From Acidobacteriaceae bacterium (GTDB lineage Bacteria; Acidobacteriota; Terriglobia; Terriglobales; Acidobacteriaceae), in contig PLHW01000028.1 of the NCBI GenBank assembly GCA_003139095.1, positions 62,001 to 126,000 on the forward strand: a stretch of 64,000 nucleotides of DNA, written 5' to 3'. Positions within the stretch are counted from its first letter, which is position 1; every line of letters begins with the position of its first letter. Below are positions 34,394 through 47,999 of the stretch, in pieces. The notes under the pieces are model-generated. The model was not told the origin of the DNA. It was given only the letters and a program-made list of their open reading frames with translations, and did not search any database. Both the position numbers and the translations under genes were made by a program.

Positions 34394-35089
34394 ATGCAGA
34401 TTTTTCCACGCAGCAGTAATGCTATTTCGAAGGCCTCGATCGTCGGGGTCATCGTTATTGTCGCTACTCTTTTTTGGTTCCTGATGCAGCTCCAGGGCTC
34501 GCCTTACGTCACCTGGCAGGGCGTGCGCAAGGCCCAGCCCATCCCCTTCAGCCATCAGCACCATGTCACCGGCCTCGGCATCGACTGCCGCTACTGCCAC
34601 ACTTCGGTTGAAACTTCCAGCTTCGCCGGCATCCCGCCCACCAAGACTTGTATGAACTGCCACTCGCAGATCTGGACCAACGCCCAAATGCTCGAGCCCG
34701 TTCGCGCCAGCTACCGCAGCGGCGAATCCATCCAGTGGACGCGCGTCAACCAGCTTCCCGATTTCGTCTATTTCAATCACAGCATCCACATCGTCAAGGG
34801 CATCGGCTGCAATGACTGTCATGGCCCCGTCGATCAGATGCCGCTCATGTATCAGGCCGGCTCGCTCCAGATGCAATGGTGCCTGGACTGCCACCGCGAC
34901 CCCGAAAAGCATATCCGGCCGCGCGATCAGGTTTTCAACATGCGCTACGAGCAGCCGTCATCGTCCGCGCCCGTGCAGATCGACGGCGTCAGCTATAGCG
35001 ATCAGGAGTCGCTCGGCGCAGCGCTCACGAAAAAATATCAGTTGCGCACCGTGCAGGACATCACCAGCTGTAACACGTGCCATCGCTAG
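34394..35089 (+). CDS. actA: ACIII subunit ActA, pentaheme cytochrome c
   Basis: 231 residues. One N-terminal membrane helix (about 14-32), then a periplasmic domain with five CxxCH motifs: CRYCH, CMNCH, CNDCH, CLDCH and CNTCH (the last at the C-terminus). This heme count and the single anchor match ActA of alternative complex III, a quinol:electron-acceptor oxidoreductase that replaces cytochrome bc1. First gene of the act-cox block. It lies 162 bp before actB; the gap carries no gene. Confidence 0.93.
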   Translation: MQIFPRSSNAISKASIVGVIVIVATLFWFLMQLQGSPYVTWQGVRKAQPIPFSHQHHVTGLGIDCRYCHTSVETSSFAGIPPTKTCMNCHSQIWTNAQMLEPVRASYRSGESIQWTRVNQLPDFVYFNHSIHIVKGIGCNDCHGPVDQMPLMYQAGSLQMQWCLDCHRDPEKHIRPRDQVFNMRYEQPSSSAPVQIDGVSYSDQESLGAALTKKYQLRTVQDITSCNTCHR

Positions 35090-35250: not shown

Positions 35251-38200
35251 ATGGAAGACGTAAAACAAAAACCGAAACCCGAAGACGTTTGTCCCGGCAA
35301 AAAGCTGGACCGCGCCGCCGTCGAGGAGCAGTTAAGCCGCACCAGCGGCCCGGAATATTGGCGCAGCCTCGAAGAACTCGCCGGCTCCTCCGAATTCCGC
35401 GAGATGATGCACCGCGAATTCCCCAAGGGCGCGTCCGAGTGGCTCGACTCCGTCTCCCGCCGCGGCTTCCTCCAGCTCATGGGCGCTTCGCTCGCCATGG
35501 CCGGAATGACGGGCTGCACGCGGCTTCCGCTCGAAGAGATCGTCCCCTACGTTCGCCAGCCCGAGCAGGTCATTCCCGGCCGGCCGATGTTCTACGCCAC
35601 CGCCTTCACGCTCGGCGGATACGCGCAGCCTCTTCTTGTCGAAAGTCACCTCGGCCGTCCCACAAAAATTGAAGGTAATCCGCTGCATCCCGCCAGCCTC
35701 GGCGCCACCGACCTTTTCGCGCAGGCCTCCATCCTTGCCATGTACGATCCCGACCGCGCCCAGAGCGTCACACACCTCGGTGACATGGCGTCGTGGTCCG
35801 AGTTTGCCAAACAACTCCGCGGTCCACTCGTCGTGCAAAAAGCCTTGCAGGGCGCGGGCATTCGCATCCTCACGCAAACCGTCTCTTCGCCGACTTTCAA
35901 AGACCAGATGCAGTCCTTCCTCGCCATGTATCCCCAGGCGAAGTGGCATGTCTACGAGCCGGTGAATCGCGACAACGTTCTCGAAGGCGCAAAGCTTGCC
36001 TTTGGTCAGCCCGTCGAGACGCGCTACGATTTTTCCCAGGCCGCAGTCATCCTCTCGCTCGACGCCGATTTCATGGCCGCCGGATCGCCCGGCAACGTGC
36101 GCTACATCCGCGATTTCGCCGCCAAGCGCAATCCCGACGCCGACATGAGTCGTCTCTACGTGATCGAGAGCACGCCCTCACCCACGGGAGCCAAGGCGGA
36201 TCATCGCTTGCCCGTTCGCGCCAGTGAAGTGGAAGGCTTCTCCCGCTCGCTCGCCTCCGCGCTCGGCGGGAGCGCCGCCGCGTCCGCCAATCCCGGCACT
36301 GCAAAATTTCTCGCCGCCGTCGCCGCCGACTTGGCGAAGCACAAAGGCGCAAGCCTCGTCATCGCCGGCGATCATCAGCCGCCCGCCGTTCATGCGATCG
36401 CGCACGCCATGAATGCCGCGCTCGGCAACGTCGGCAAAACGGTTTTCTACACCGACCCCGTCGACGCCAATCCAGTCAACCAGACCGAATCCCTGCGCGA
36501 ACTCGTCTCCGACATGCGCGCCGGAAAAGTCGATCTGCTCGTCATCGTCGGCGGCAACCCTGTCTACGACGCGCCCGCCGATCTCGGCTTTGAAGACGCA
36601 CTCAACAATCCCAAAGTAGCCGTCCGCGTCTATCACGGCCTCTATCAGAATGAGACGGCGCACCTCTGTCACTGGAATTTGAACTCAACCCACTACCTCG
36701 AAGAGTGGAGTGACGCCCGCGCGTATGACGGCACCGTCAGCCTGGTGCAGCCCCTCATCGCTCCTCTTTATGGCGGCCACAGCGCGCACGAACTCATCTC
36801 CGCGCTCATGGGCTCTGACGCCACCGGCTACGACATCGTCCGGTCCTACTGGCAAAAGCAGCACACCGGCGCAGACTTCGAAGCCTTCTGGCGCAAAACC
36901 CTCAACGATGGATTTGTCGCCGGCACCGCATACGCGCCCAAACAGCTCTCGGCGAAGGCGGTCGCAATCCCCGCCGCCGCCGCGCCTGATTCGGCTGCGC
37001 TCGAAGTCAATCTCCGCCGCGATCCCTCTATCTACGACGGCCAATTTTCCAACAACGGCTGGCTCCAGGAATTGCCCAAGCCCATGTCGAAGCTCACTTG
37101 GGATAATGCCATCCAGATCGGCCCGAAGATGGCCGACCGCGAAGGCCTCCAGAGCATGGACGTGGTCACGCTCGAACTTGATGGCCGCAAAGTCACCGGC
37201 CCCGTTTGGATTCAGGCCGGCCATCCCGATCATTCCGTCACCGTCCATCTCGGCTATGGCCGCACTCGCGCCGGACGCGCCGGCACTGGCGCGGGATTCG
37301 ACGCCTACCCGCTCCGCACTACCGGCGCCCTCTGGATCGCGCTCGGCGGCAAGCTCACCAAGACCGGCGACCACTATGTCCTCGCTTCCACGCAGGGCTT
37401 CCAGACGATGGACATCGGCGATGGCGAAACTCGCCCCGCCGTGCGCCAGGCCACGCTCGCCGAATATCGCAAAGAGCCCAGGTTCGCCAAAGAAGACGAG
37501 CCGCCTGCCGAGCTCACTCTCTATCCCGGCTTCGACTACAAAAAATCGCCCGATGCCTGGGGCATGACCATCGACCTCAACAAGTGCGTCGGCTGCAACA
37601 GTTGCATCGTCGCCTGCCAGTCGGAAAACAATATCCCCGTCGTCGGCAAAGATCAGACGCAGCGTGGCCGCCACATGCACTGGCTTCGCGTCGACGCCTA
37701 CTACCAGGGCGATCGCGACGATCCCAGCGCCTACTTCCAGCCCGTCCCGTGCCAGCAGTGCGAGAACGCTCCCTGCGAACTCGTCTGCCCCGTCGGCGCT
37801 ACCGTGCACAGCAGCGAAGGCCTCAACGACATGGTCTACAACCGCTGCATCGGCACCCGCTATTGCTCCAACAACTGTCCTTACAAAGTTCGCCGCTTCA
37901 ACTTCCTGCTCTTTCAGGATTGGGAGACGCCGCAATACAAAATCATGCGCAACCCGGACGTCACCGTGCGCAGCCGCGGCGTCATGGAAAAGTGTACGTA
38001 CTGCGTGCAGCGCATCTCCGAGCATCGCATCGACGCCGAAACCGCCGCGGTCCGCGAGAATCGCCCTTTCCACGTCGCAGACGGCTCCATCCAGACCGCC
38101 TGCCAGCAGTCCTGTCCGGCCAACGCCATCGAATTCGGCAACATCAACGACGCCGGCAGCAAGGTTGCCAAGCTCAAATCCCTCGACCGCAACTATGGGT

Positions 38201-38280
38201 TGCTCGCCGACCTCAACACCAGGCCCCGCACCACCTACCTGGCCGAGATCCGCAACCCCAACCCTGAACTGGAAACATAA
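35251..38280 (+). CDS. actB: ACIII subunit ActB, molybdopterin-oxidoreductase-like Fe-S protein
   Basis: 1009 residues. A twin-arginine motif SRRGFLQLMG (69-78) precedes a hydrophobic stretch ending in Cys89, compatible with Tat export. Residues about 100-750 resemble the catalytic chain of complex-iron-sulfur molybdoenzymes, as in all ActB proteins, where no molybdenum cofactor is bound. The C-terminal ferredoxin part has Cys779, 782, 785, 789 (CVGCNSCIVAC) and further clusters CQQCENAPCELVC, CIGTRYCSNNC and CTYC/CQQSC. It conducts electrons between quinol site and heme subunits. Fused B1-B2 form as usual in ACIII. Confidence 0.94.
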   Translation: MEDVKQKPKPEDVCPGKKLDRAAVEEQLSRTSGPEYWRSLEELAGSSEFREMMHREFPKGASEWLDSVSRRGFLQLMGASLAMAGMTGCTRLPLEEIVPYVRQPEQVIPGRPMFYATAFTLGGYAQPLLVESHLGRPTKIEGNPLHPASLGATDLFAQASILAMYDPDRAQSVTHLGDMASWSEFAKQLRGPLVVQKALQGAGIRILTQTVSSPTFKDQMQSFLAMYPQAKWHVYEPVNRDNVLEGAKLAFGQPVETRYDFSQAAVILSLDADFMAAGSPGNVRYIRDFAAKRNPDADMSRLYVIESTPSPTGAKADHRLPVRASEVEGFSRSLASALGGSAAASANPGTAKFLAAVAADLAKHKGASLVIAGDHQPPAVHAIAHAMNAALGNVGKTVFYTDPVDANPVNQTESLRELVSDMRAGKVDLLVIVGGNPVYDAPADLGFEDALNNPKVAVRVYHGLYQNETAHLCHWNLNSTHYLEEWSDARAYDGTVSLVQPLIAPLYGGHSAHELISALMGSDATGYDIVRSYWQKQHTGADFEAFWRKTLNDGFVAGTAYAPKQLSAKAVAIPAAAAPDSAALEVNLRRDPSIYDGQFSNNGWLQELPKPMSKLTWDNAIQIGPKMADREGLQSMDVVTLELDGRKVTGPVWIQAGHPDHSVTVHLGYGRTRAGRAGTGAGFDAYPLRTTGALWIALGGKLTKTGDHYVLASTQGFQTMDIGDGETRPAVRQATLAEYRKEPRFAKEDEPPAELTLYPGFDYKKSPDAWGMTIDLNKCVGCNSCIVACQSENNIPVVGKDQTQRGRHMHWLRVDAYYQGDRDDPSAYFQPVPCQQCENAPCELVCPVGATVHSSEGLNDMVYNRCIGTRYCSNNCPYKVRRFNFLLFQDWETPQYKIMRNPDVTVRSRGVMEKCTYCVQRISEHRIDAETAAVRENRPFHVADGSIQTACQQSCPANAIEFGNINDAGSKVAKLKSLDRNYGLLADLNTRPRTTYLAEIRNPNPELET

Positions 38281-38298: not shown

Positions 38299-39678
38299 AT
38301 GGCAGATCATCTGAAACAATCGGCAGTGGTCGAGCGGGCTCCCGTCATCGAGCCCGGCCACTCCTTCGCCACCGTCACGGACAAGATCAGCTCCATCGTG
38401 CTTACGCGTCCAACCACCAACGGTTGGATCTTTGGCTTTGCCGTCAGCTTTCTCGCCACCATGATGATGCTCTTCGCCCTTGGCGTTCTCTTTCTCAAGG
38501 GCGTCGGCATTTGGGGCATCAACATCCCCATCGGTTGGGGCTTTGCCATCGTCAACTTCGTCTGGTGGATCGGTATCGGCCACGCCGGCACGCTCATCTC
38601 CGCCATCCTTTTATTACTGCGTCAGTCCTGGCGTAACTCCATCAACCGTTTCGCCGAGGCCATGACACTCTTCGCCGTCGCCTGCGCCGGCGTCTTCCCC
38701 GGCGTCCACACCGGCCGCCCCTGGCTCGATTACTGGATGTTCCCTTACCCCAACACGATGAATTACTGGCCGCAGTTCCGCAGTCCTCTCATCTGGGACG
38801 TCTTCGCGGTCTCGACCTACTTCACCGTCTCACTTCTGTTCTGGTTCATCGGACTCATCCCCGACTTCGGCACTCTCCGCGATCGCGCCCACAACAAATA
38901 CGCGCAAATGATCTACGGCCTCCTCTCCATGGGATGGCGCGGCTCCGCCCGCCACTGGGCTCGTTATGAGATGGCCTATCTTCTTCTCGCCGGACTCGCC
39001 ACGCCCCTCGTGCTCTCCGTGCACACCGTCGTCAGCTTCGATTTCGCCGTCGGCATCGTCCCCGGCTGGCACACCACTATCTTCCCGCCTTACTTCGTCG
39101 CCGGTGCCATTTACTCCGGCTTTGCCATGGTGTTGATGCTCGCCATCCCCATCCGCAAAATCTATAACCTCGAAGACTTCATCACCGACCGCCATCTTCA
39201 GAACTCCGCCAAGGTCATGCTCGCCACCGGTTGGATCGTCGCTTACGGCTACGCGATCGAAGCTTTCACCGGCTGGTACGGCGGCAATCGCTACGACGCC
39301 GGCCTCCTCTATAACCGCCTCCACGGGCCCTACGCCTTCTGGTATTACATGCTGCTGCTCTGCAACATCGGCATTCCGCAGCTGCTCTGGTTCCGCAAGA
39401 TGCGCACGCATCCGGTTTTCCTCTTCCTTATTTCTTTTGTCATTCTCGTCGGCATGTGGCTCGAGCGTTTCGTCATCATCGTCATCAGCCTGACCCGCGA
39501 CTTCGTCCCCTCGTCCTTCGGCATGTATTACCCCACTAAGTGGGATTGGATGACTTACATTGGCACCATCGGCATGTTCCTGACGGCCATGTTCCTCTTT
39601 GTCCGCATTCTGCCCATGATCTCGATCTTTGAAATTCGCCAGTTGCTTCCCGAGGCGAAGGTGGAGGGTAAACACTAA
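38299..39678 (+). CDS. actC: ACIII subunit ActC, NrfD-like quinol-binding membrane protein
   Basis: 459 residues with about ten membrane helices, NrfD/PsrC-like. Motifs include the first-helix region FLATMMMLFALG, IGIGHAGTLISAILLL and the histidine-bearing VHTVVSFDF. ActC carries the likely quinol-oxidising site of ACIII. It starts 18 bp after actB, and its TAA overlaps the actD ATG by one base (TAATG). Confidence 0.93.
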   Translation: MADHLKQSAVVERAPVIEPGHSFATVTDKISSIVLTRPTTNGWIFGFAVSFLATMMMLFALGVLFLKGVGIWGINIPIGWGFAIVNFVWWIGIGHAGTLISAILLLLRQSWRNSINRFAEAMTLFAVACAGVFPGVHTGRPWLDYWMFPYPNTMNYWPQFRSPLIWDVFAVSTYFTVSLLFWFIGLIPDFGTLRDRAHNKYAQMIYGLLSMGWRGSARHWARYEMAYLLLAGLATPLVLSVHTVVSFDFAVGIVPGWHTTIFPPYFVAGAIYSGFAMVLMLAIPIRKIYNLEDFITDRHLQNSAKVMLATGWIVAYGYAIEAFTGWYGGNRYDAGLLYNRLHGPYAFWYYMLLLCNIGIPQLLWFRKMRTHPVFLFLISFVILVGMWLERFVIIVISLTRDFVPSSFGMYYPTKWDWMTYIGTIGMFLTAMFLFVRILPMISIFEIRQLLPEAKVEGKH

Positions 39679-40214
39679 TGCCCACTCCCACCATTTACGG
39701 CACCATGGCTGAGTTCAAATCTGCCCAGCAACTCCTGGTCGCGGCCCAGGCCACGCATGACGCCGGCTACCAGAAGATCGACGCCTACAGCCCCTTCCCC
39801 ATCGAGGAGATGGCGGAGGCCATCGGCTTCCACAAAAATCGCGTCGCTCTCATCACGCTCCTCGGCGCCATCACCGGCGGCTGCCTCGGCTACCTCATGC
39901 AGTACTACATCGCAGTGATCAGCTATCCCACCAACGTCGGCGGCCGCCCTTATCACTCCTGGCCTTCGTTCATCATCGTCACCTTTGAGATGACGATTCT
40001 GTTCGGCGCAATCTCCGCCGTCGTCGGCATGATCGCCCTCAATGGCCTGCCCATGCCCTATCACCCCGTCTTCAATGTGCCGGAATTTGTCCGCGCCAGC
40101 AAAGACCGTTTCTTTCTCATCGTCTTTGCCACCGATCCCAAGTACGATCCGCAGGCGACGCGCCAGTTCCTGGAAGCTCTGCAGCCCGAATCCATCGCGG
40201 AGGTCCCCAGCTAA
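39678..40214 (+). CDS. actD: ACIII subunit ActD (DUF3341)
   Basis: 178 residues with two central membrane helices (about 54-78 and 95-118) bracketed by soluble ends, matching DUF3341. The N-terminal part AYSPFPIEEMAEAIG is a family hallmark. Structural subunit of the membrane arm. One-base overlap with actC; actE starts immediately after its stop. Confidence 0.92.
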   Translation: MPTPTIYGTMAEFKSAQQLLVAAQATHDAGYQKIDAYSPFPIEEMAEAIGFHKNRVALITLLGAITGGCLGYLMQYYIAVISYPTNVGGRPYHSWPSFIIVTFEMTILFGAISAVVGMIALNGLPMPYHPVFNVPEFVRASKDRFFLIVFATDPKYDPQATRQFLEALQPESIAEVPS

Positions 40215-40874
40215 ATGCTGCCCCTCCGAAAAATTTCCCCGTTGATTCTGCTGGCGGTCATGTCCACCGTCGGCTGCCGCATCGACATGCACGTGCAGCC
40301 CCGCTACAACCCGCTCGCCAAAAGCGACTTCTTCGCTGACCAGCGCGCCGCCCGCCCGCTCATCGCAGGCACCGTCGCCCGCGGCGATGAGCGCGCCGAC
40401 ACCTATTTCTATACCGGAAAAAACGGCAGCGTCCTCGGCGAGCAGATGCCCTTCCCGGTCACCAAAGAAGTCATGCGGCGCGGCCGCGAGCGCTACAACA
40501 TCTATTGTTCGCCGTGCCACTCCCGTCTCGGCGATGGCAACGGCTTCATCCCGTCGCGCGGCTTCCCGCAAAAGCCGCCCTCCTATCACATTGAAAGGCT
40601 CGTCAAAGCTCCCATCGGTCATTTCTTCGACGTCATGACCCATGGCTACGGCATCATGCTGGATTATTCCGCGCAAATCTCGCCCCACGATCGCTGGTGC
40701 ATCGCCGCCTACATCCGCGCCCTGCAACTCAGCCAGAACGCCACCCTCGCCGACGTTCCCCAGGGCCAGGACGTTCCCTCGAAAGCGCCCGAATTTTTGG
40801 AGCCCGGCACCGGCGCCACTCTCCCTCAGCTCGCGCCCGCCCCCAACACCTCGGAGAAGGGGGAATCGAAATGA
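40215..40874 (+). CDS. actE: ACIII subunit ActE, monoheme cytochrome c lipoprotein
   Basis: 219 residues. The signal with lipobox STVGC suggests a lipid-anchored Cys near 19. One heme motif CSPCH (98-102) followed by SRLGDGNGF, and a probable axial Met further on in the HGYGIMLDY region. Passes electrons from ActA/ActB to the terminal oxidase or another acceptor. The C-terminal tail is Pro/Ala-rich. Its stop overlaps the actF start by 4 bp (ATGA). Confidence 0.92.
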   Translation: MLPLRKISPLILLAVMSTVGCRIDMHVQPRYNPLAKSDFFADQRAARPLIAGTVARGDERADTYFYTGKNGSVLGEQMPFPVTKEVMRRGRERYNIYCSPCHSRLGDGNGFIPSRGFPQKPPSYHIERLVKAPIGHFFDVMTHGYGIMLDYSAQISPHDRWCIAAYIRALQLSQNATLADVPQGQDVPSKAPEFLEPGTGATLPQLAPAPNTSEKGESK

Positions 40875-42100
40875 CCACCACGCCCCGTCTCCCACACGCG
40901 CCTGAAATTGATCTCACCGCGCCGCCGATCATTAGGACCATCGGCCAGCGCGCCCTCATCGTCGGCGTCATCGGCACCGTCGTCGCTCTCTACATCGCCT
41001 TTACCAATCCCACCGTCTTCTTCCGCGGTTACCTCGTCTCCTACATGGATTGGCTCGGCATCTGTCTCGGCTCCCTGGCCATCGTCATGGTCCGCCACAT
41101 GACCGGCGGAAAATGGGGCACCGTCATCCGCCGCATCCTCGGCGCTTCCATGCGCACGCTACCGCTCATGGCGCTGCTCTTCATCCCGCTTGTCTTCGCC
41201 GCCAAACGCCTCTATCCCTGGGCCATGCCCATCGATTCCATCGCCGATCCCATCATCCGCGAGCATCTGCAAAAGCACACGTTCATTCTGCGCGACTACC
41301 TTAACCTCAACGCCTTCGTCGTTCGCGCCATCATTTATTTTGGCATCTGGTTCATCTTGCAGACCGCGCTCAGCCGGCTCTCCGCACGCCACAACAGCCC
41401 GCCCGTCTCTGACACTAGCGCCAGTTCCAAGCGCATCAGCGCTCCGGGACTCATCCTCTACGCGCTCACCGTTTCCTTCGCCGTCATCGACTGGGTCATG
41501 TCCCTCGACCCAAGTTGGGTCTCCACCATCTACGGCCTCATCTTCGTCGCCGGGCAACTCATCACCGCCCTCGCCTTCGCCATCGTCATTGAGCGCGTCC
41601 TCTTTAACTATCGCCCCATGAACGTCCTCCTCCGCCCGAGCTTCGTCCACGACCACGGCAACCTCATGCTCGCCTTCATCATGGTTTGGGCCTATTTCTC
41701 GTTCTCGCAGTTCCTCATCATGTGGGCCGGCAATCTCCCCGACGAAATCACCTGGTACTTCCGCCGCCTCCATCACGGCTGGGAATATGTGGGGCTGTTC
41801 CTCGTGCTCTTCCATTTCTTCATCCCGTTTTTCCTGCTCCTGTTCCGGCCCAACAAGCGTGACGTTCGCCGCCTCGTCTGGATCGCCGCCTGGATGCTCG
41901 TCGCCCACTACGTCGAAATCTTCTGGCACATCGAACCCAGTTTCTCCCAGTCGTTCACCGTCACCCTCGCCGACCTCGTCATCCCCTTTGCCATGGGCGG
42001 CCTCTGGGTCGCCTATTTCTGCCGCAATCTCAGCTCGCAGCCGCTCATTCCCGCTTACGACGCGACTGCGCAGGACATCTTGGAGCCCGCCCATGAGTAA
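40871..42100 (+). CDS. actF: ACIII subunit ActF, second NrfD-like membrane protein
   Basis: 409 residues from ATG 40871, chosen because it couples to actE (ATGA) and opens directly into the protein; a 58-residue upstream extension of the frame is a shadow. About ten membrane helices; motifs VMSLDPSWVSTIYGL and NLMLAFIMVWAYFSFSQ are typical ActF. Paralog of ActC in the membrane arm, suggested to take part in proton movement. Its last codons overlap the next gene by 8 bp. Confidence 0.93.
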   Translation: MTTTPRLPHAPEIDLTAPPIIRTIGQRALIVGVIGTVVALYIAFTNPTVFFRGYLVSYMDWLGICLGSLAIVMVRHMTGGKWGTVIRRILGASMRTLPLMALLFIPLVFAAKRLYPWAMPIDSIADPIIREHLQKHTFILRDYLNLNAFVVRAIIYFGIWFILQTALSRLSARHNSPPVSDTSASSKRISAPGLILYALTVSFAVIDWVMSLDPSWVSTIYGLIFVAGQLITALAFAIVIERVLFNYRPMNVLLRPSFVHDHGNLMLAFIMVWAYFSFSQFLIMWAGNLPDEITWYFRRLHHGWEYVGLFLVLFHFFIPFFLLLFRPNKRDVRRLVWIAAWMLVAHYVEIFWHIEPSFSQSFTVTLADLVIPFAMGGLWVAYFCRNLSSQPLIPAYDATAQDILEPAHE

Positions 42101-42623
42101 ACAGCAGGCCCCCAATCTCGATAGCCACGGCGCCTTCGAGCGTCAGGACCTCAGCCCCGCTGGCCTCATTTATTTCATGATCGGCCTCGCCGTCTTTGTC
42201 GTCGCCATCTATTTCGTCGTGTTCGGCATGTACCGGTTCCTCGACAACTACGACAAAGCCGGCCAGCTTCCCATGAGCCCGATGCTCGCTCCGAGGGCCG
42301 ATACGCGCGCCGTCACCCCGCCCGAAATTCAGGCTTTCCCCGAGCCGCGCCTCGAAGAGAGCGAGCGCAACCAGCTTCGCCAGTACATCGAAGACCAGGA
42401 TCGCAAGCTCGCCATGTACAACTGGGTCGATAAAGACAAAGGCGTAGTCCAGATTCCCATCGACCGCGCCATGGAGTTAATCGTCGCGCGCGGCCTCCCA
42501 GTCCGCCAGGAAACGGCGCAAACAAAATCGCAAACCCCCATGCAGAATTCGAATCCGGCATCAACCGATCCGCAGCAGAAGGATCAACAGCAAAAGAAGA
42601 AAGCAGGCAGCAGTGCGCAGTAA
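42093..42623 (+). CDS. Unnamed single-TM protein inside the ACIII-caa3 operon
   Basis: 176 residues from ATG 42093 (overlaps actF by 8 bp; the frame extends upstream only as shadow). One membrane helix at about 25-50 (YFMIGLAVFVVAIYF), then a periplasmic or cytoplasmic domain containing PPEIQAFPEPRLEESE, LRQYIEDQDRKL and IPIDRAMELIVARGLP, which resembles the segment in proteins that accompany ACIII in other phyla. A Gln/Lys/Ser-rich tail follows. Not one of the six classical Act subunits. Its position between actF and sco suggests a structural link between the two complexes or an assembly factor; this is inference. Confidence 0.82.
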   Translation: MSKQQAPNLDSHGAFERQDLSPAGLIYFMIGLAVFVVAIYFVVFGMYRFLDNYDKAGQLPMSPMLAPRADTRAVTPPEIQAFPEPRLEESERNQLRQYIEDQDRKLAMYNWVDKDKGVVQIPIDRAMELIVARGLPVRQETAQTKSQTPMQNSNPASTDPQQKDQQQKKKAGSSAQ

Positions 42624-43554
42624 CCATTCCTCAAATTCGATCGGGTCGGCCGGGTTTCCCCCGTATTCCTCCCTGCACCACGTGGTCAAAGCTTTCAGCC
42701 GGCATCTGATGAGAGCCTCGCTGATCGTCCTGCTCTCAGCCAGCACGCTCTTCGCCCAGGCCATGTCCCGCGGCATCCTCTCGCCTCCGGCCACCCTCCG
42801 TCCCCCCGGACTCAAGAACGTCGGCATCCAGCAAAATCTCAACCAGCCCATCCCCGCCGACCTTGCCTTCACCGACGATCAGGGCCGCAGCGTACGCCTC
42901 GGCGACTACTTTGGCAAAAAGCCCATCATCTTCAACCTCGTCTACTTCACCTGCCCCATGCTCTGCGGAGAAGAACTCAACGGCCTCGAAAGCGCCCTCC
43001 GCGTCCTTAAGTTCGACGTGGGTAATCAGTTCGACGTCATCACCGTCAGCTTCGATCCCAAAGACACTCCCGAAGCCGCCGCCAAAAAGAAAGCCGAAAT
43101 CCTTCATCGCTACAATCGTCCCGGCGCCGCCGCAGGCTGGCACTTCTTAGTCGGCCAGCAACCGCAAATCACCGCCCTCGCCAACGCCGCCGGGTTCCAG
43201 TACGAGTACGACTCCAACACCCAGCAGTTCGCCCACTCCACCGCCATCATGGTCCTCACGCCGCAAGGCAAGATCGCGCAGTATTACTATGGCATCGACT
43301 ATCCGCCCAGCGATCTCCGTCTCGCCCTCGTCGCCGCCTCCAGCGAAAAAATCGGCACGCCCGTCGACGAACTCCTGCTCTACTGCTATCACTACGATCC
43401 CGCCAAGGGTAAGTACAGCGCCACCATCGTGCGCGTCCTTCGCCTCGCCGGCATCGCTACCATTTTGTGTTTGGGCATGTTGTTTCTTGTCCTCTTTCGC
43501 CGCGGCCCTGACCGTCCCAGCCGCGGCCCTCAAGGAGCCATCAGGGTCAGCTAA
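42613..43554 (+). CDS. sco: SCO1/SenC-family copper chaperone
   Basis: 313 residues from GTG 42613, which overlaps the previous gene; ATG 42709 (Met33) would start directly at the signal helix ASLIVLLSASTLFA and is a serious alternative. The thioredoxin-like domain has the copper site Cys114 and Cys118 (CPMLC) and a later His in FAHSTAIMVL. A C-terminal helix (GIATILCLGMLFLVL) anchors it to the membrane. SCO delivers copper to the CuA site of the subunit II encoded next; the stop and the coxB ATG overlap by one base. Confidence 0.9.
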   Translation: MRSNHSSNSIGSAGFPPYSSLHHVVKAFSRHLMRASLIVLLSASTLFAQAMSRGILSPPATLRPPGLKNVGIQQNLNQPIPADLAFTDDQGRSVRLGDYFGKKPIIFNLVYFTCPMLCGEELNGLESALRVLKFDVGNQFDVITVSFDPKDTPEAAAKKKAEILHRYNRPGAAAGWHFLVGQQPQITALANAAGFQYEYDSNTQQFAHSTAIMVLTPQGKIAQYYYGIDYPPSDLRLALVAASSEKIGTPVDELLLYCYHYDPAKGKYSATIVRVLRLAGIATILCLGMLFLVLFRRGPDRPSRGPQGAIRVS

Positions 43555-44597
43555 TGTTTTCACACATACCACTTTGGCCGGACGCAGCCTCCACCAACGC
43601 GGGACACGTGGACGCTCTCTATATTTATCTTGTCCTGATCTGCGCCTCCATGACGGTGCTCATCTTCGCCACCCTCGCCGTCTTTGCTATCAAATATCGC
43701 AGGAGCCACAATCGCACCGCCCATCCCATCGACGGCTCCAATCTCCTCGAAGTCGCCTGGACCGTCATCCCCTTCGGCATCTTCCTCACCTTCTTCGTCT
43801 GGGGCGCGGTCATCTTCTTTGACGAGCGAACACCCCCGCAGGACTCCACCGAGGTCTATACCGTCGCCAAGCAGTGGATGTGGAAGTTTGAGCACGCCGA
43901 AGGGCAGCGCGAAATTAACGAGCTCCACGTTCCCATCGGCCGCGACGTCAAAATGATCATGACCTCGCAGGATGTCATCCACAGCTTTTACGTCCCCGCC
44001 TTCCGCATCAAGCAGGACGTGCTGCCCGGCCGCTACACTACCGCCTGGTTCCATGCCACCAAGGCCGGCACCTATCATCTGTTTTGTGCCGAGTATTGCG
44101 GCACCGAGCACTCCGGCATGATTGGCTGGGTCATCGTCATGGAGCCGCGCGACTATCAGGCCTGGCTCGCCTCCGGCGGCGGCAATCAGCCCATGGCCGT
44201 CACCGGACAGACTCTCTTCGCCGAATACGGCTGCTCCACCTGCCATCGCTCTGACACCGAGGGCCGTGGCCCCAATCTCGCCGGACTCTACGGCAAGCCC
44301 GTCGTCCTCGAAGATGGCCGCACCCTCATCGCCGACGAAAATTACATTCGCGAGTCCATCGTCGATCCGGGCGCAAAAATCGTCCAGGGGTTCAAGCCCA
44401 TCATGCCCACGTATCAGGGCCAGATCAGCGACGAGCAGCTCAACGCTCTAGTCCAGTACGTGAAGTCCGTGGGTCAAACATCAACGGGTCAGGCATCAAC
44501 CGGCCAGGCAGCAACGACTCAAGCGGCAGCGAGTCAACCGACGAACGATCAAAACACCCAGGCCCAGCCCGCCATGATGACCGGCGCGGCAAAGTAG
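43554..44597 (+). CDS. coxB: Cytochrome c oxidase subunit II with fused cytochrome c (caa3)
   Basis: 347 residues. Two N-terminal helices (about 20-45 and 65-90), a cupredoxin domain with CuA ligands Cys178, Cys182, His186 and Met189 (CAEYCGTEHSGM) and the upstream His of VIHSFYVP, then a C-terminal cytochrome c with CSTCH (227-231) and probable axial Met in KPIMPTYQG. The fusion marks a caa3-type enzyme that accepts electrons from the act cytochromes. Residues 309-333 are pentapeptide repeats ending in Q (TSTGQ-like), encoded by 15-bp units. Confidence 0.94.
   Translation: MFSHIPLWPDAASTNAGHVDALYIYLVLICASMTVLIFATLAVFAIKYRRSHNRTAHPIDGSNLLEVAWTVIPFGIFLTFFVWGAVIFFDERTPPQDSTEVYTVAKQWMWKFEHAEGQREINELHVPIGRDVKMIMTSQDVIHSFYVPAFRIKQDVLPGRYTTAWFHATKAGTYHLFCAEYCGTEHSGMIGWVIVMEPRDYQAWLASGGGNQPMAVTGQTLFAEYGCSTCHRSDTEGRGPNLAGLYGKPVVLEDGRTLIADENYIRESIVDPGAKIVQGFKPIMPTYQGQISDEQLNALVQYVKSVGQTSTGQASTGQAATTQAAASQPTNDQNTQAQPAMMTGAAK
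44478..44552 (+). repeat. 15-bp in-frame tandem repeat in coxB tail, five units
   Basis: Units at 44478, 44493, 44508, 44523 and 44538 encode TSTGQ, ASTGQ, AATTQ, AAASQ, PTNDQ: progressively eroded toward the 3' end. It is downstream of the heme domain. Confidence 0.8.
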
Positions 44598-44697: not shown

Positions 44698-46336
<1,639 letters not shown>

Positions 46337-46347
<11 letters not shown>

Positions 46348-47044
46348 TGAAGCCGCCGCCATCGTTCCCCACGAAGAGCCGAATCCCGCGCTCCTCCATC
46401 ACTTCGTCACCGAGGAGCAGCAGAAAAATGCCGCCAGTCTCGGCATGTGGCTCTTCCTCGCGCAGGAAGTCATGTTCTTCGGCGGCATGTTCTGCGCCTA
46501 TCTCGTCTACCGCTACAAGTATTTCGGTGACTTCGGCTCCGCCAGCCAGACCCTCAACATCTGGTACGGCGCCATCAATACCGCCGTCCTGCTCTGCTCC
46601 AGTCTCACCGTGGTTCTAGCCGTCCGCGCCGCTCAACTCAACAAGCGCAAAGCCCTCACCATGTGGCTCGTCTTCACCATTCTTCTCGGCCTCGTCTTTC
46701 TCGGCGTCAAGGGCATCGAGTACAAAGAAAAATTCGAGAACCACCACGTCCCCGGTCCGTCCTTCGCCTATCACGGAACCGTCCCCAGTCATCCCGACCA
46801 GCAGGTCAATCCGCGTCACGCAGAAATCTATTTCTCGCTCTATTTCGCCATGACCGGCATGCACGCTCTGCACATGATCATCGGCGTCGGCCTCTTCGGC
46901 ACGCTCGCCGTCTGGGCCTGGCGCGGAAAATACTCCGCCAACTATTACACGCCCATTGAAAATGCCGGCCTCTACTGGCACTTCGTAGATATTGTCTGGA
47001 TTTATTTATTCCCGTTGCTCTACCTGATCGACCGCCACAGGTGA
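46337..47044 (+). CDS. coxC: Cytochrome c oxidase subunit III
   Basis: 235 residues from TTG 46337, with AGGAGG at 46325-46330 exactly placed; it overlaps the end of coxA by 11 bp. Five-helix form typical of caa3 oxidases, with [16 protein letters not shown] and [26 protein letters not shown] is the family's closing motif. No catalytic metal; stabilises subunit I. Followed by coxD after 4 bp. Confidence 0.94.
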
Positions 47045-47048
47045 CCCA

Positions 47049-47375
47049 ATGACTGAACACTCCAACGCTTCCCAAAACACCGCCACGCCCCACGAGCACA
47101 TCTCGTCCATCGGTTCGTCCGTCGCCATCTGGATCGTCCTCTTAATCTGCACCGCCCTCACCGCCGGAGTCGCCTTCATCGACCTCGGCCCCCTCAACAC
47201 CATCGTCGCTCTCACCATCGCCACCTTCAAAGCCATCCTCGTAGTGCTCTTCTTCATGCACGTAAAATACACCCACGAAAAATTAACCGGCCTGGTAATT
47301 GTCAGCGCAATTTTCTTCCTGTTCCTGCTCCTGACCCTAAGCATGGCCGACTACACCACCCGCCTCTGGCACTAA
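47049..47375 (+). CDS. coxD: Cytochrome c oxidase subunit IV (CtaF/COX4-like)
   Basis: 108 residues with three membrane helices (about 26-46, 52-73, 80-100). ATFKAILVVLFFMHVKY is the hallmark of bacterial subunit IV. Structural role in the oxidase. Last gene of the apparent act-cox transcript; no classical terminator follows, but a heptamer array lies about 95 bp downstream. Confidence 0.92.
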   Translation: MTEHSNASQNTATPHEHISSIGSSVAIWIVLLICTALTAGVAFIDLGPLNTIVALTIATFKAILVVLFFMHVKYTHEKLTGLVIVSAIFFLFLLLTLSMADYTTRLWH

Positions 47376-47470
47376 GCCCGGCGCATTACCGCACCCGCCT
47401 CTGGATTAAAAGGAATTGTCGAAGAAGAAAGAGAGACGAAGACATCCACCCAAGCGAAACAAGCATCCCT

Positions 47471-47540
47471 GAGACCTGAGACCTGAGACCTGAGACCTGA
47501 GACCTGAGACCTGAGACCTGAGACCTGAGACCTGAGACCT
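47471..47540. repeat. Perfect heptamer array GAGACCT x 10
   Basis: Ten uninterrupted copies of GAGACCT between the convergent coxD and CBS genes, ending 7 bp from the CBS stop. Differs from the 30755 array by G to C at one unit position. Confidence 0.97.
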
Positions 47541-47546
47541 GAACCC

Positions 47547-47999
47547 CTACCCCGGATACCGCCCCGTAATGTACCCCTCCAACTCCTGAATGGCCTGCGC
47601 CTGTCCTGAGATCGTCCACCGCACCAGATCCCCAATCGACACCACGCCCACCGGCACCTCGTTCTCCATCACCGGCAAATGCCGGAACCGCCGGTTCGTC
47701 ATAATCGCCATGCACTCATCCACCGTGTTCTTCGGCGTCACATACACCACCGGCGTGCTCATAATGTCGCTCACCAGCGTCTCCTTCGACGCGTGCCCCT
47801 TCAGTACCACCTTCCGCGCATAATCCCGCTCCGACAAAATTCCCACCAGCCTGTTCCCCGCCATTACCAGAACCGCGCCAATCCCCTCCAGCGCCATCTT
47901 CTCAATCGCCTCGTACACCGACTGCTCCGGCGACACCGAAAATATCTTCCGGTTCTGCTTCCCCCGCAACAGCGTCTCAATCGTTTCCGTATTCGTCAT
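47547..47999 (-). CDS. CBS-domain-pair protein
   Basis: 150 residues from ATG 47999; GTG 48014 is in frame, but its codons (GGGGCGGGAG) look like the ribosome site for 47999. Two CBS motifs: [19 protein letters not shown]...[18 protein letters not shown] and [20 protein letters not shown]...[11 protein letters not shown]. This stand-alone type binds adenosyl nucleotides and regulates partners; function unspecified. Convergent with the oxidase operon. Confidence 0.9.

Follow-up and report, generated by a model that had tools for sequence, protein, structure and literature searches.

Gene Organization of the Locus

The window, i.e., the whole 64,000-nt stretch of Acidobacteriaceae DNA under analysis, contains an operon in which the genes for the ACIII subunits ActA-F are followed by one small ORF (42093-42623, +) and then by the genes for SCO1/SenC, CoxB, CoxA, CoxC and CoxD (Table 1), in agreement with the initial annotation, which had placed the ORF between ACIII and caa3 genes. 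The ORF is real, with an ATG start and 176 codons, and the 8-bp overlap with actF described in the initial annotation is exact. The overlap with sco ascribed to its other end holds only if sco starts at the GTG at position 42613, and it is not established: two alternative in-frame starts would separate the genes by 58 bp (start at 42682) or 85 bp (start at 42709); in our reading, these two starts appear to directly precede a stretch resembling a signal peptide. The most upstream possible sco start varies from -340 to +159 bp relative to the actG stop in 39 related loci, which shows that such an overlap is not constant. Past coxD, an ORF on the opposite strand (47386-47715, -) reads as repeats of one short unit (GLRSQVS), pointing to a small tandem repeat in the DNA.

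Table 1. Features of the act-cox operon and of the actG gene (positions refer to the window).
Feature	Position	Strand	Basis
actA, multiheme cytochrome c	34394-35089	+	Pfam Cytochrome_C7; gene order
actB, Fe-S and molybdopterin-like subunit	35251-38280	+	Pfam and NCBIfam
actC, NrfD-like membrane subunit	38299-39678	+	Pfam NrfD
actD	39678-40214	+	Pfam ActD (4.2e-64); PDB ActD chains
actE, monoheme cytochrome c	40215-40874	+	Pfam; PDB ACIII chains
actF, membrane subunit	40871-42100	+	place and relatives; no Pfam model above cut-off; start inferred
GGAG, likely ribosome-binding site of actG	42082-42085	+	sequence reading; ATG 7 bases further
actG, 176-aa one-TM ACIII subunit	42093-42623	+	match to PDB chain 8k9e_G; profile match; same slot in relatives
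actF end/actG start overlap, 8 bp	42093-42100	+	sequence; actF stop TAA at 42098-42100
ActG membrane helix, codons 22-57	42156-42263	+	AlphaFold helix and hydropathy
Conserved ActG arm, codons 89-133: helix, strand, helix with QIPIDRAMELI motif	42357-42491	+	AlphaFold model and 130 distinct ActG segments
ActG tail, codons 140-176, Q/N/P-rich, low-confidence	42510-42620	+	per-block pLDDT from about 60 down to 44-52
sco (SCO1/SenC)	42613-43554	+	Pfam SCO1-SenC (1.2e-10); start uncertain (42613, 42682 or 42709)
coxB, oxidase subunit II with cytochrome c domain	43554-44597	+	Pfam COX2 and Cytochrom_C
coxA, oxidase subunit I	44698-46347	+	ORF; named by place and sequence
coxC, oxidase subunit III	46337-47044	+	ORF; named by place and sequence
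coxD, caa3 oxidase subunit IV	47049-47375	+	TIGR02229 caa3_sub_IV

A single hydrophobic segment was found in the encoded protein, with 19-residue hydropathy windows above 1.6 starting at residues 19 to 33 and a maximum of 2.79 at residue 25, while the highest value for windows starting beyond residue 60 was 0.91. The AlphaFold model (16-row alignment; mean pLDDT 67.6, pTM 0.33) has one long confident helix (residues 22-57), so that hydropathy and model together bear out the one-TM topology claimed in the initial annotation; at lower confidence it contains a helix (residues 89-107), a strand (residues 111-113) and a second helix (residues 123-133), followed by the tail. The protein holds neither Cys nor a heme or other cofactor motif. 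A fold search of the model against the PDB library gave nothing significant, the lone match having an E value of 9.5.

Identification of the Protein as ActG

In Pfam and NCBIfam scans no model reached its cut-off, which is why the protein looked new. On the contrary, phmmer against PDB sequences matched it to chain G of entry 8k9e, named "ActG" (E 2.6e-6, 30.8 bits), in an alignment limited to residues 92-139 of the window protein and residues 67-112 of the chain. With a 16-sequence profile, the ActG chain was the sole significant match in the PDB (E 1e-5; next 0.16). The sequence of this chain is identical in 8k9e, 8k9f, 8x2j and 9ilt and, since these four entries also contain proteins related to the window ActD and ActE, chain G belongs to an ACIII; we take 8k9e to be the ACIII of C. 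aurantiacus. The PDB protein resembles that of the window in the sequence of its arm, in the one hydrophobic helix preceding it and in being encoded by the last gene after actF, but its 112 aa stop directly behind the motif, whereas in the window protein the linker is longer and a tail of 37 more residues follows.

The slot between actF and sco-cox was also inspected in locus L243, whose ActE is identical to chain 6f0k_E over 209 residues and which was taken as R. marinus, 6f0k being the R. marinus ACIII structure (PMC8076601, available text). The slot gene encodes a one-TM protein related to that of the window (profile E 1.3e-13; pairwise E 8e-8 over the arm), but of 130 aa. According to the available text of PMC5928083, the R. 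marinus ACIII contains an ActG predicted to have a single TM helix; peptide mass fingerprinting identified it in the purified complex, although it lacks resolved density in the structure, and ActD and ActG seem to be exclusive to ACIII. For R. marinus, this answers in print the second outcome that the initial annotation had set against its idea, namely absence of the protein from the purified complex. On the contrary, according to the accessible part of PMC9316378, ActG is specific to C. aurantiacus and R. marinus lacks it. The two sources are thus in conflict, and a homologous gene is found here in the R. marinus slot.

On the strength of these sequence matches, we regard the identity of the window protein as settled: it is ActG, a small ACIII subunit that had been described before. 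The gene is more than a chance ORF, since both the gene and its order are conserved across several phyla. The reading of an unrelated, new protein unique to this operon would agree with the silence of the Pfam and NCBIfam models; it is refuted by the 8k9e match together with the synteny and by a family conserved in several phyla, and its probability is practically nil. The initial annotation was right in keeping the protein apart from ActA-F, but "uncharacterised" is not supported, as ActG has been named in C. aurantiacus (PMC3150298), in R. marinus (PMC5928083) and in the four PDB entries. With this identification the respiratory operon loses an apparent unknown, and ActG becomes a broad ACIII family in spite of the restriction to C. 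aurantiacus given in PMC9316378.

Distribution and Gene Neighbourhood of ActG

The ActG profile (E ≤ 0.001) matched at least 133 of the 297 genomes of the window's phylum, presumably the Acidobacteriota judging by the operon type in PMC8407424; this count, for which up to 12 candidates per genome were scored, is a lower bound because at least one ActG was missed (genome G038, seen in locus L150). ActD (PF11821) was found in 212. All the 133 ActG-positive genomes listed have ActD as well; 79 have ActD only and 85 have neither. ActG would therefore not be essential to ACIII, since 79 of the 212 ActD-positive genomes gave no ActG match, in part because of missed matches. The available texts mention no actG homolog in Melioribacter (PMC3534657) and an ACIII devoid of both ActF and ActG in Nitrospirales (PMC12342949). 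In other groups the profile matched, some of the matches being weak, at least 53 of 60 genomes in the class of the Bacteroidetes locus L016 (E ≤ 0.01), at least 87 of 387 in the phylum of the betaproteobacterial locus L006 (E ≤ 0.001) and at least 28 of 199 in the phylum of the Phycisphaerales locus L002. In the 130 distinct ActG segments collected, which were found by a profile containing the IPIxxAM motif, P and A of this motif are 100% conserved.

A total of 116 ActG loci were read with their flanks, comprising 16 initial loci, 40 from the window's phylum (hand-picked from the 133 genomes, mostly one per family) and 60 hand-chosen from other groups (40 from the phylum of L006, 11 from that of L002 and 9 from the class of L016). 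In 115 of them act genes are present on the same strand within the stretch, the exception being L242, so that the occurrence of homologs widely outside act operons, envisaged in the initial annotation as evidence against its idea, was not observed. The actF gene lies within 1.3 kb upstream of actG in 111 loci (16/16, 37/40 and 58/60 in the three sets; the misses are L128-L130, L207 and L242), and a gene for oxidase subunit I, either caa3- or cbb3-like, lies within 2.6 kb downstream in 113, in 26 of which the sole subunit I match within 3.5 kb was obtained with the cbb3-like query. The three remaining loci are L013 and L188, whose contigs end 242 and 385 bp past ActG, and the orphan L242.

The ActG-like protein of L242 (9297-10169, +) is much extended at its N-terminus, and its gene lies in a stretch with neither act nor oxidase genes; the genome has a second ActG match. 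Long N-terminal extensions are frequent among the ActGs of the class of L016.

Two apparent exceptions to the oxidase linkage were dropped. A group of 23 loci from the phylum of L006 had seemed to carry ActG without an oxidase, but tblastn with the genes of L208 retrieved a cbb3-like subunit I in 23 of 23; likewise, the oxidase that had seemed to be lacking in L015 is present. Pfam models for COX1, FixO and cytochrome c were matched by ORFs of L208 and L218; of the ORFs scanned in L193, one encodes a cytochrome c and two encode unrelated proteins.

Where the act genes are split or displaced, as in four of the loci, ActG keeps its place beside the oxidase. Three of them (L128-L130) have the order actB-actE-actG-sco-coxBACD-actC, followed in two of the three by actD-actF, so that actG is directly upstream of sco even though the membrane genes lie past the oxidase. 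This arrangement is much like that of the second C. aurantiacus operon, in which, according to the available text, actG is immediately upstream of the SCO1/SenC and COX genes (PMC3150298). In the fourth locus (L207), actG is 7 kb from actF and adjoins a cbb3-like oxidase.

Act Loci without ActG

Forty ActD loci were then compared, 26 from genomes without an ActG match and 14 further ones from ActG-positive genomes. ActG is nevertheless present in L150, which belongs to the 26, and is followed there by sco, coxB and the end of the stretch. Nine stand-alone actA-F clusters with at least 3.8 kb of downstream sequence contain neither ActG nor a caa3- or cbb3-like oxidase; four of these (L157, L162, L163 and L171) had been selected for lacking ActG, and the other five (L180, L181, L183, L184 and L185) are second clusters, the ActG cluster of each of these genomes being accompanied by an oxidase. 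Three loci that end too soon (L148, L160 and L182) and the remaining partial or cut loci of the set are outside this count.

Nine further loci (L153-L156, L158, L159, L161, L170 and L179) are act-cox operons of a second type, with an oxidase and no detectable ActG, in which the order is Sco-CoxA-CoxC-CoxB and the ActG slot is occupied by a one-TM cytochrome c of 235-324 aa, here termed A2 (e.g., L153, 11973-12872, +). CxxCH is present in nine of nine, and a cytochrome c domain was recognized by Pfam in the three proteins on which it was run. Like ActG, A2 is encoded between actF and sco, has one N-terminal helix and, in most cases, an IPVxxAM-like end, but it differs in holding a cytochrome c domain. 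A homology between the two was not supported: the hhalign alignment did not extend beyond the motif (4.2% probability, E 0.0097), and the best motif site coincided with the IPVxxA(M/V) place in seven of the nine proteins, where it scored between -9.0 and 3.6, and fell elsewhere in two; the lowest score for ActG was 13.8 and the highest among 335 background ORFs was 0.3. In L149, a divergent one-TM ORF sits in the ActG slot, its relation to ActG being not significant (E 0.28), and in L164 a divergent act set lacking ActG occurs together with a cbb3-like oxidase.

Five other loci (L151, L174, L175, L177 and L178) have actC, actD and actF, without a match for actA, actB or actE, next to coxA-coxC-coxB, and their CoxB is devoid of CxxCH.

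ActG Proteins Fused to Cytochrome c

Two of the 146 ActG ORFs (some of which were fetched twice, yielding 145 segments, 130 of them distinct) contain CxxCH. The ActG open frames of two further genomes, G956 and G559, span 362 and 368 aa and might hold a domain like that of L221. In both, L221 (9589-10746, +) and L226 (ORF from about 9541, +), a cytochrome c domain is located C-terminal of the IPIxxAM arm, i.e., at the position of the tail in the window ActG. Each fused domain is closest to the domain of the CoxB encoded in its own operon (57% in L221 and 69% in L226), and the two share only 33% with each other, which suggests two separate duplications of the CoxB domain. The CoxB heme motif is kept in both operons, as CMMACH in L221 and CLACH in L226. 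From the CxxCH pattern, a loss of the CoxB heme in L221, as in a domain swap with ActG, had been considered; as CMMACH lies within the cytochrome c domain of CoxB, this was ruled out in favour of a duplication. Attachment of heme c occurs in the periplasm, and the C-terminus of ActG should therefore be periplasmic, judging from these two C-terminal fusions. In the available parts of the open-licence literature on ActG such fusions are unmentioned, which we do not take to mean that they are unpublished.

Proposed Role of ActG

That ActG is a subunit of ACIII is well supported, and we are highly confident that it is a cofactor-free one, whose periplasmic arm would dock at the electron exit, stabilise the complex and keep it in register with its acceptor. 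The single N-terminal helix would anchor the protein in the membrane, the arm (about residues 89-133, with its IPIxxAM end) would be placed in the periplasm and bind ACIII near the electron exit, and the tail would be free. In oxidase-linked operons the stabilised ACIII would be kept in register with the oxidase; in the window, the electron acceptor would be the caa3 oxidase that the operon itself encodes. We consider this stabilising and register-keeping role likely.

How far the role extends to the oxidase is more delicate, and two readings have to be weighed against each other. ActG might be mainly a physical bridge between ACIII and the terminal oxidase, with an additional cytochrome c relaying electrons from ActE to CoxB in some lineages, a possibility to which we assign somewhat more than one chance in three; or it might only stabilise ACIII without any link to the oxidase, the gene order reflecting co-expression of the respiratory chain, to which we give even chances. 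A bridge is favoured by the subunit I gene close downstream in 113 of the 116 loci, by the lack of ActG in the nine oxidase-free clusters (partly selected for this lack, five being second clusters) and by the two fusions with a CoxB-like cytochrome c, while co-regulation alone can account for the gene order. The persistence of ActG beside the oxidase in the four rearranged or split loci, and its absence from the stand-alone clusters examined, argue for the bridge and against a function in stability only. In the opposite direction, the 2024 abstract by Xin et al. on the C. aurantiacus structure reportedly attributes part of the stability of the complex to ActG and a further subunit. Against a bridge, ActG went undetected in the nine operons of the second type, which do include an oxidase. 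In C. aurantiacus, unlike in the window, the actABCDEFG operon (actG being Caur_0627) is not followed by oxidase genes in the available description (PMC3150298), which also favours a purely stabilising function. Moreover, the F. johnsoniae ACIII, for which the accessible text lists six subunits, ActA-F, without ActG (PMC8552683), still forms a supercomplex with aa3 (PMC5928083). The C. aurantiacus and F. johnsoniae cases would thus speak against ActG as a required bridge, and they weaken a coupling role.

From the position of actG directly 5' of sco in most of the caa3-type loci read, one might suspect that ActG works together with Sco as an assembly factor, either of the oxidase or in the delivery of heme or copper. 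This appears very unlikely, since ActG is also present in loci of cbb3-like oxidases without a sco match, is found in the solved and purified ACIII (PDB entries; PMC5928083, available text) and, in the window, lacks both Cys and a heme motif.

Returning to the stabilising, register-keeping subunit, gene order and the two fusions prompt us to propose, tentatively and at little more than one chance in three, that ActG couples ACIII to the terminal oxidase: it is linked with caa3 or cbb3 genes, is missing from stand-alone ACIII clusters and may twice, independently, have been turned into an electron carrier by gain of a CoxB cytochrome c domain. In the second operon type, the slot is taken by a one-TM cytochrome c having an ActG-motif-like end. 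The oxidase linkage and the fusions give ActG a concrete role that can be tested, and render more testable the bridging idea put forward in the initial annotation. A comparable case, by description in the available text of PMC5928083, is R. marinus ActH, like ActG a small accessory ACIII subunit, which differs in having no homologs reported in other prokaryotes and in being a periplasmic three-helix bundle.
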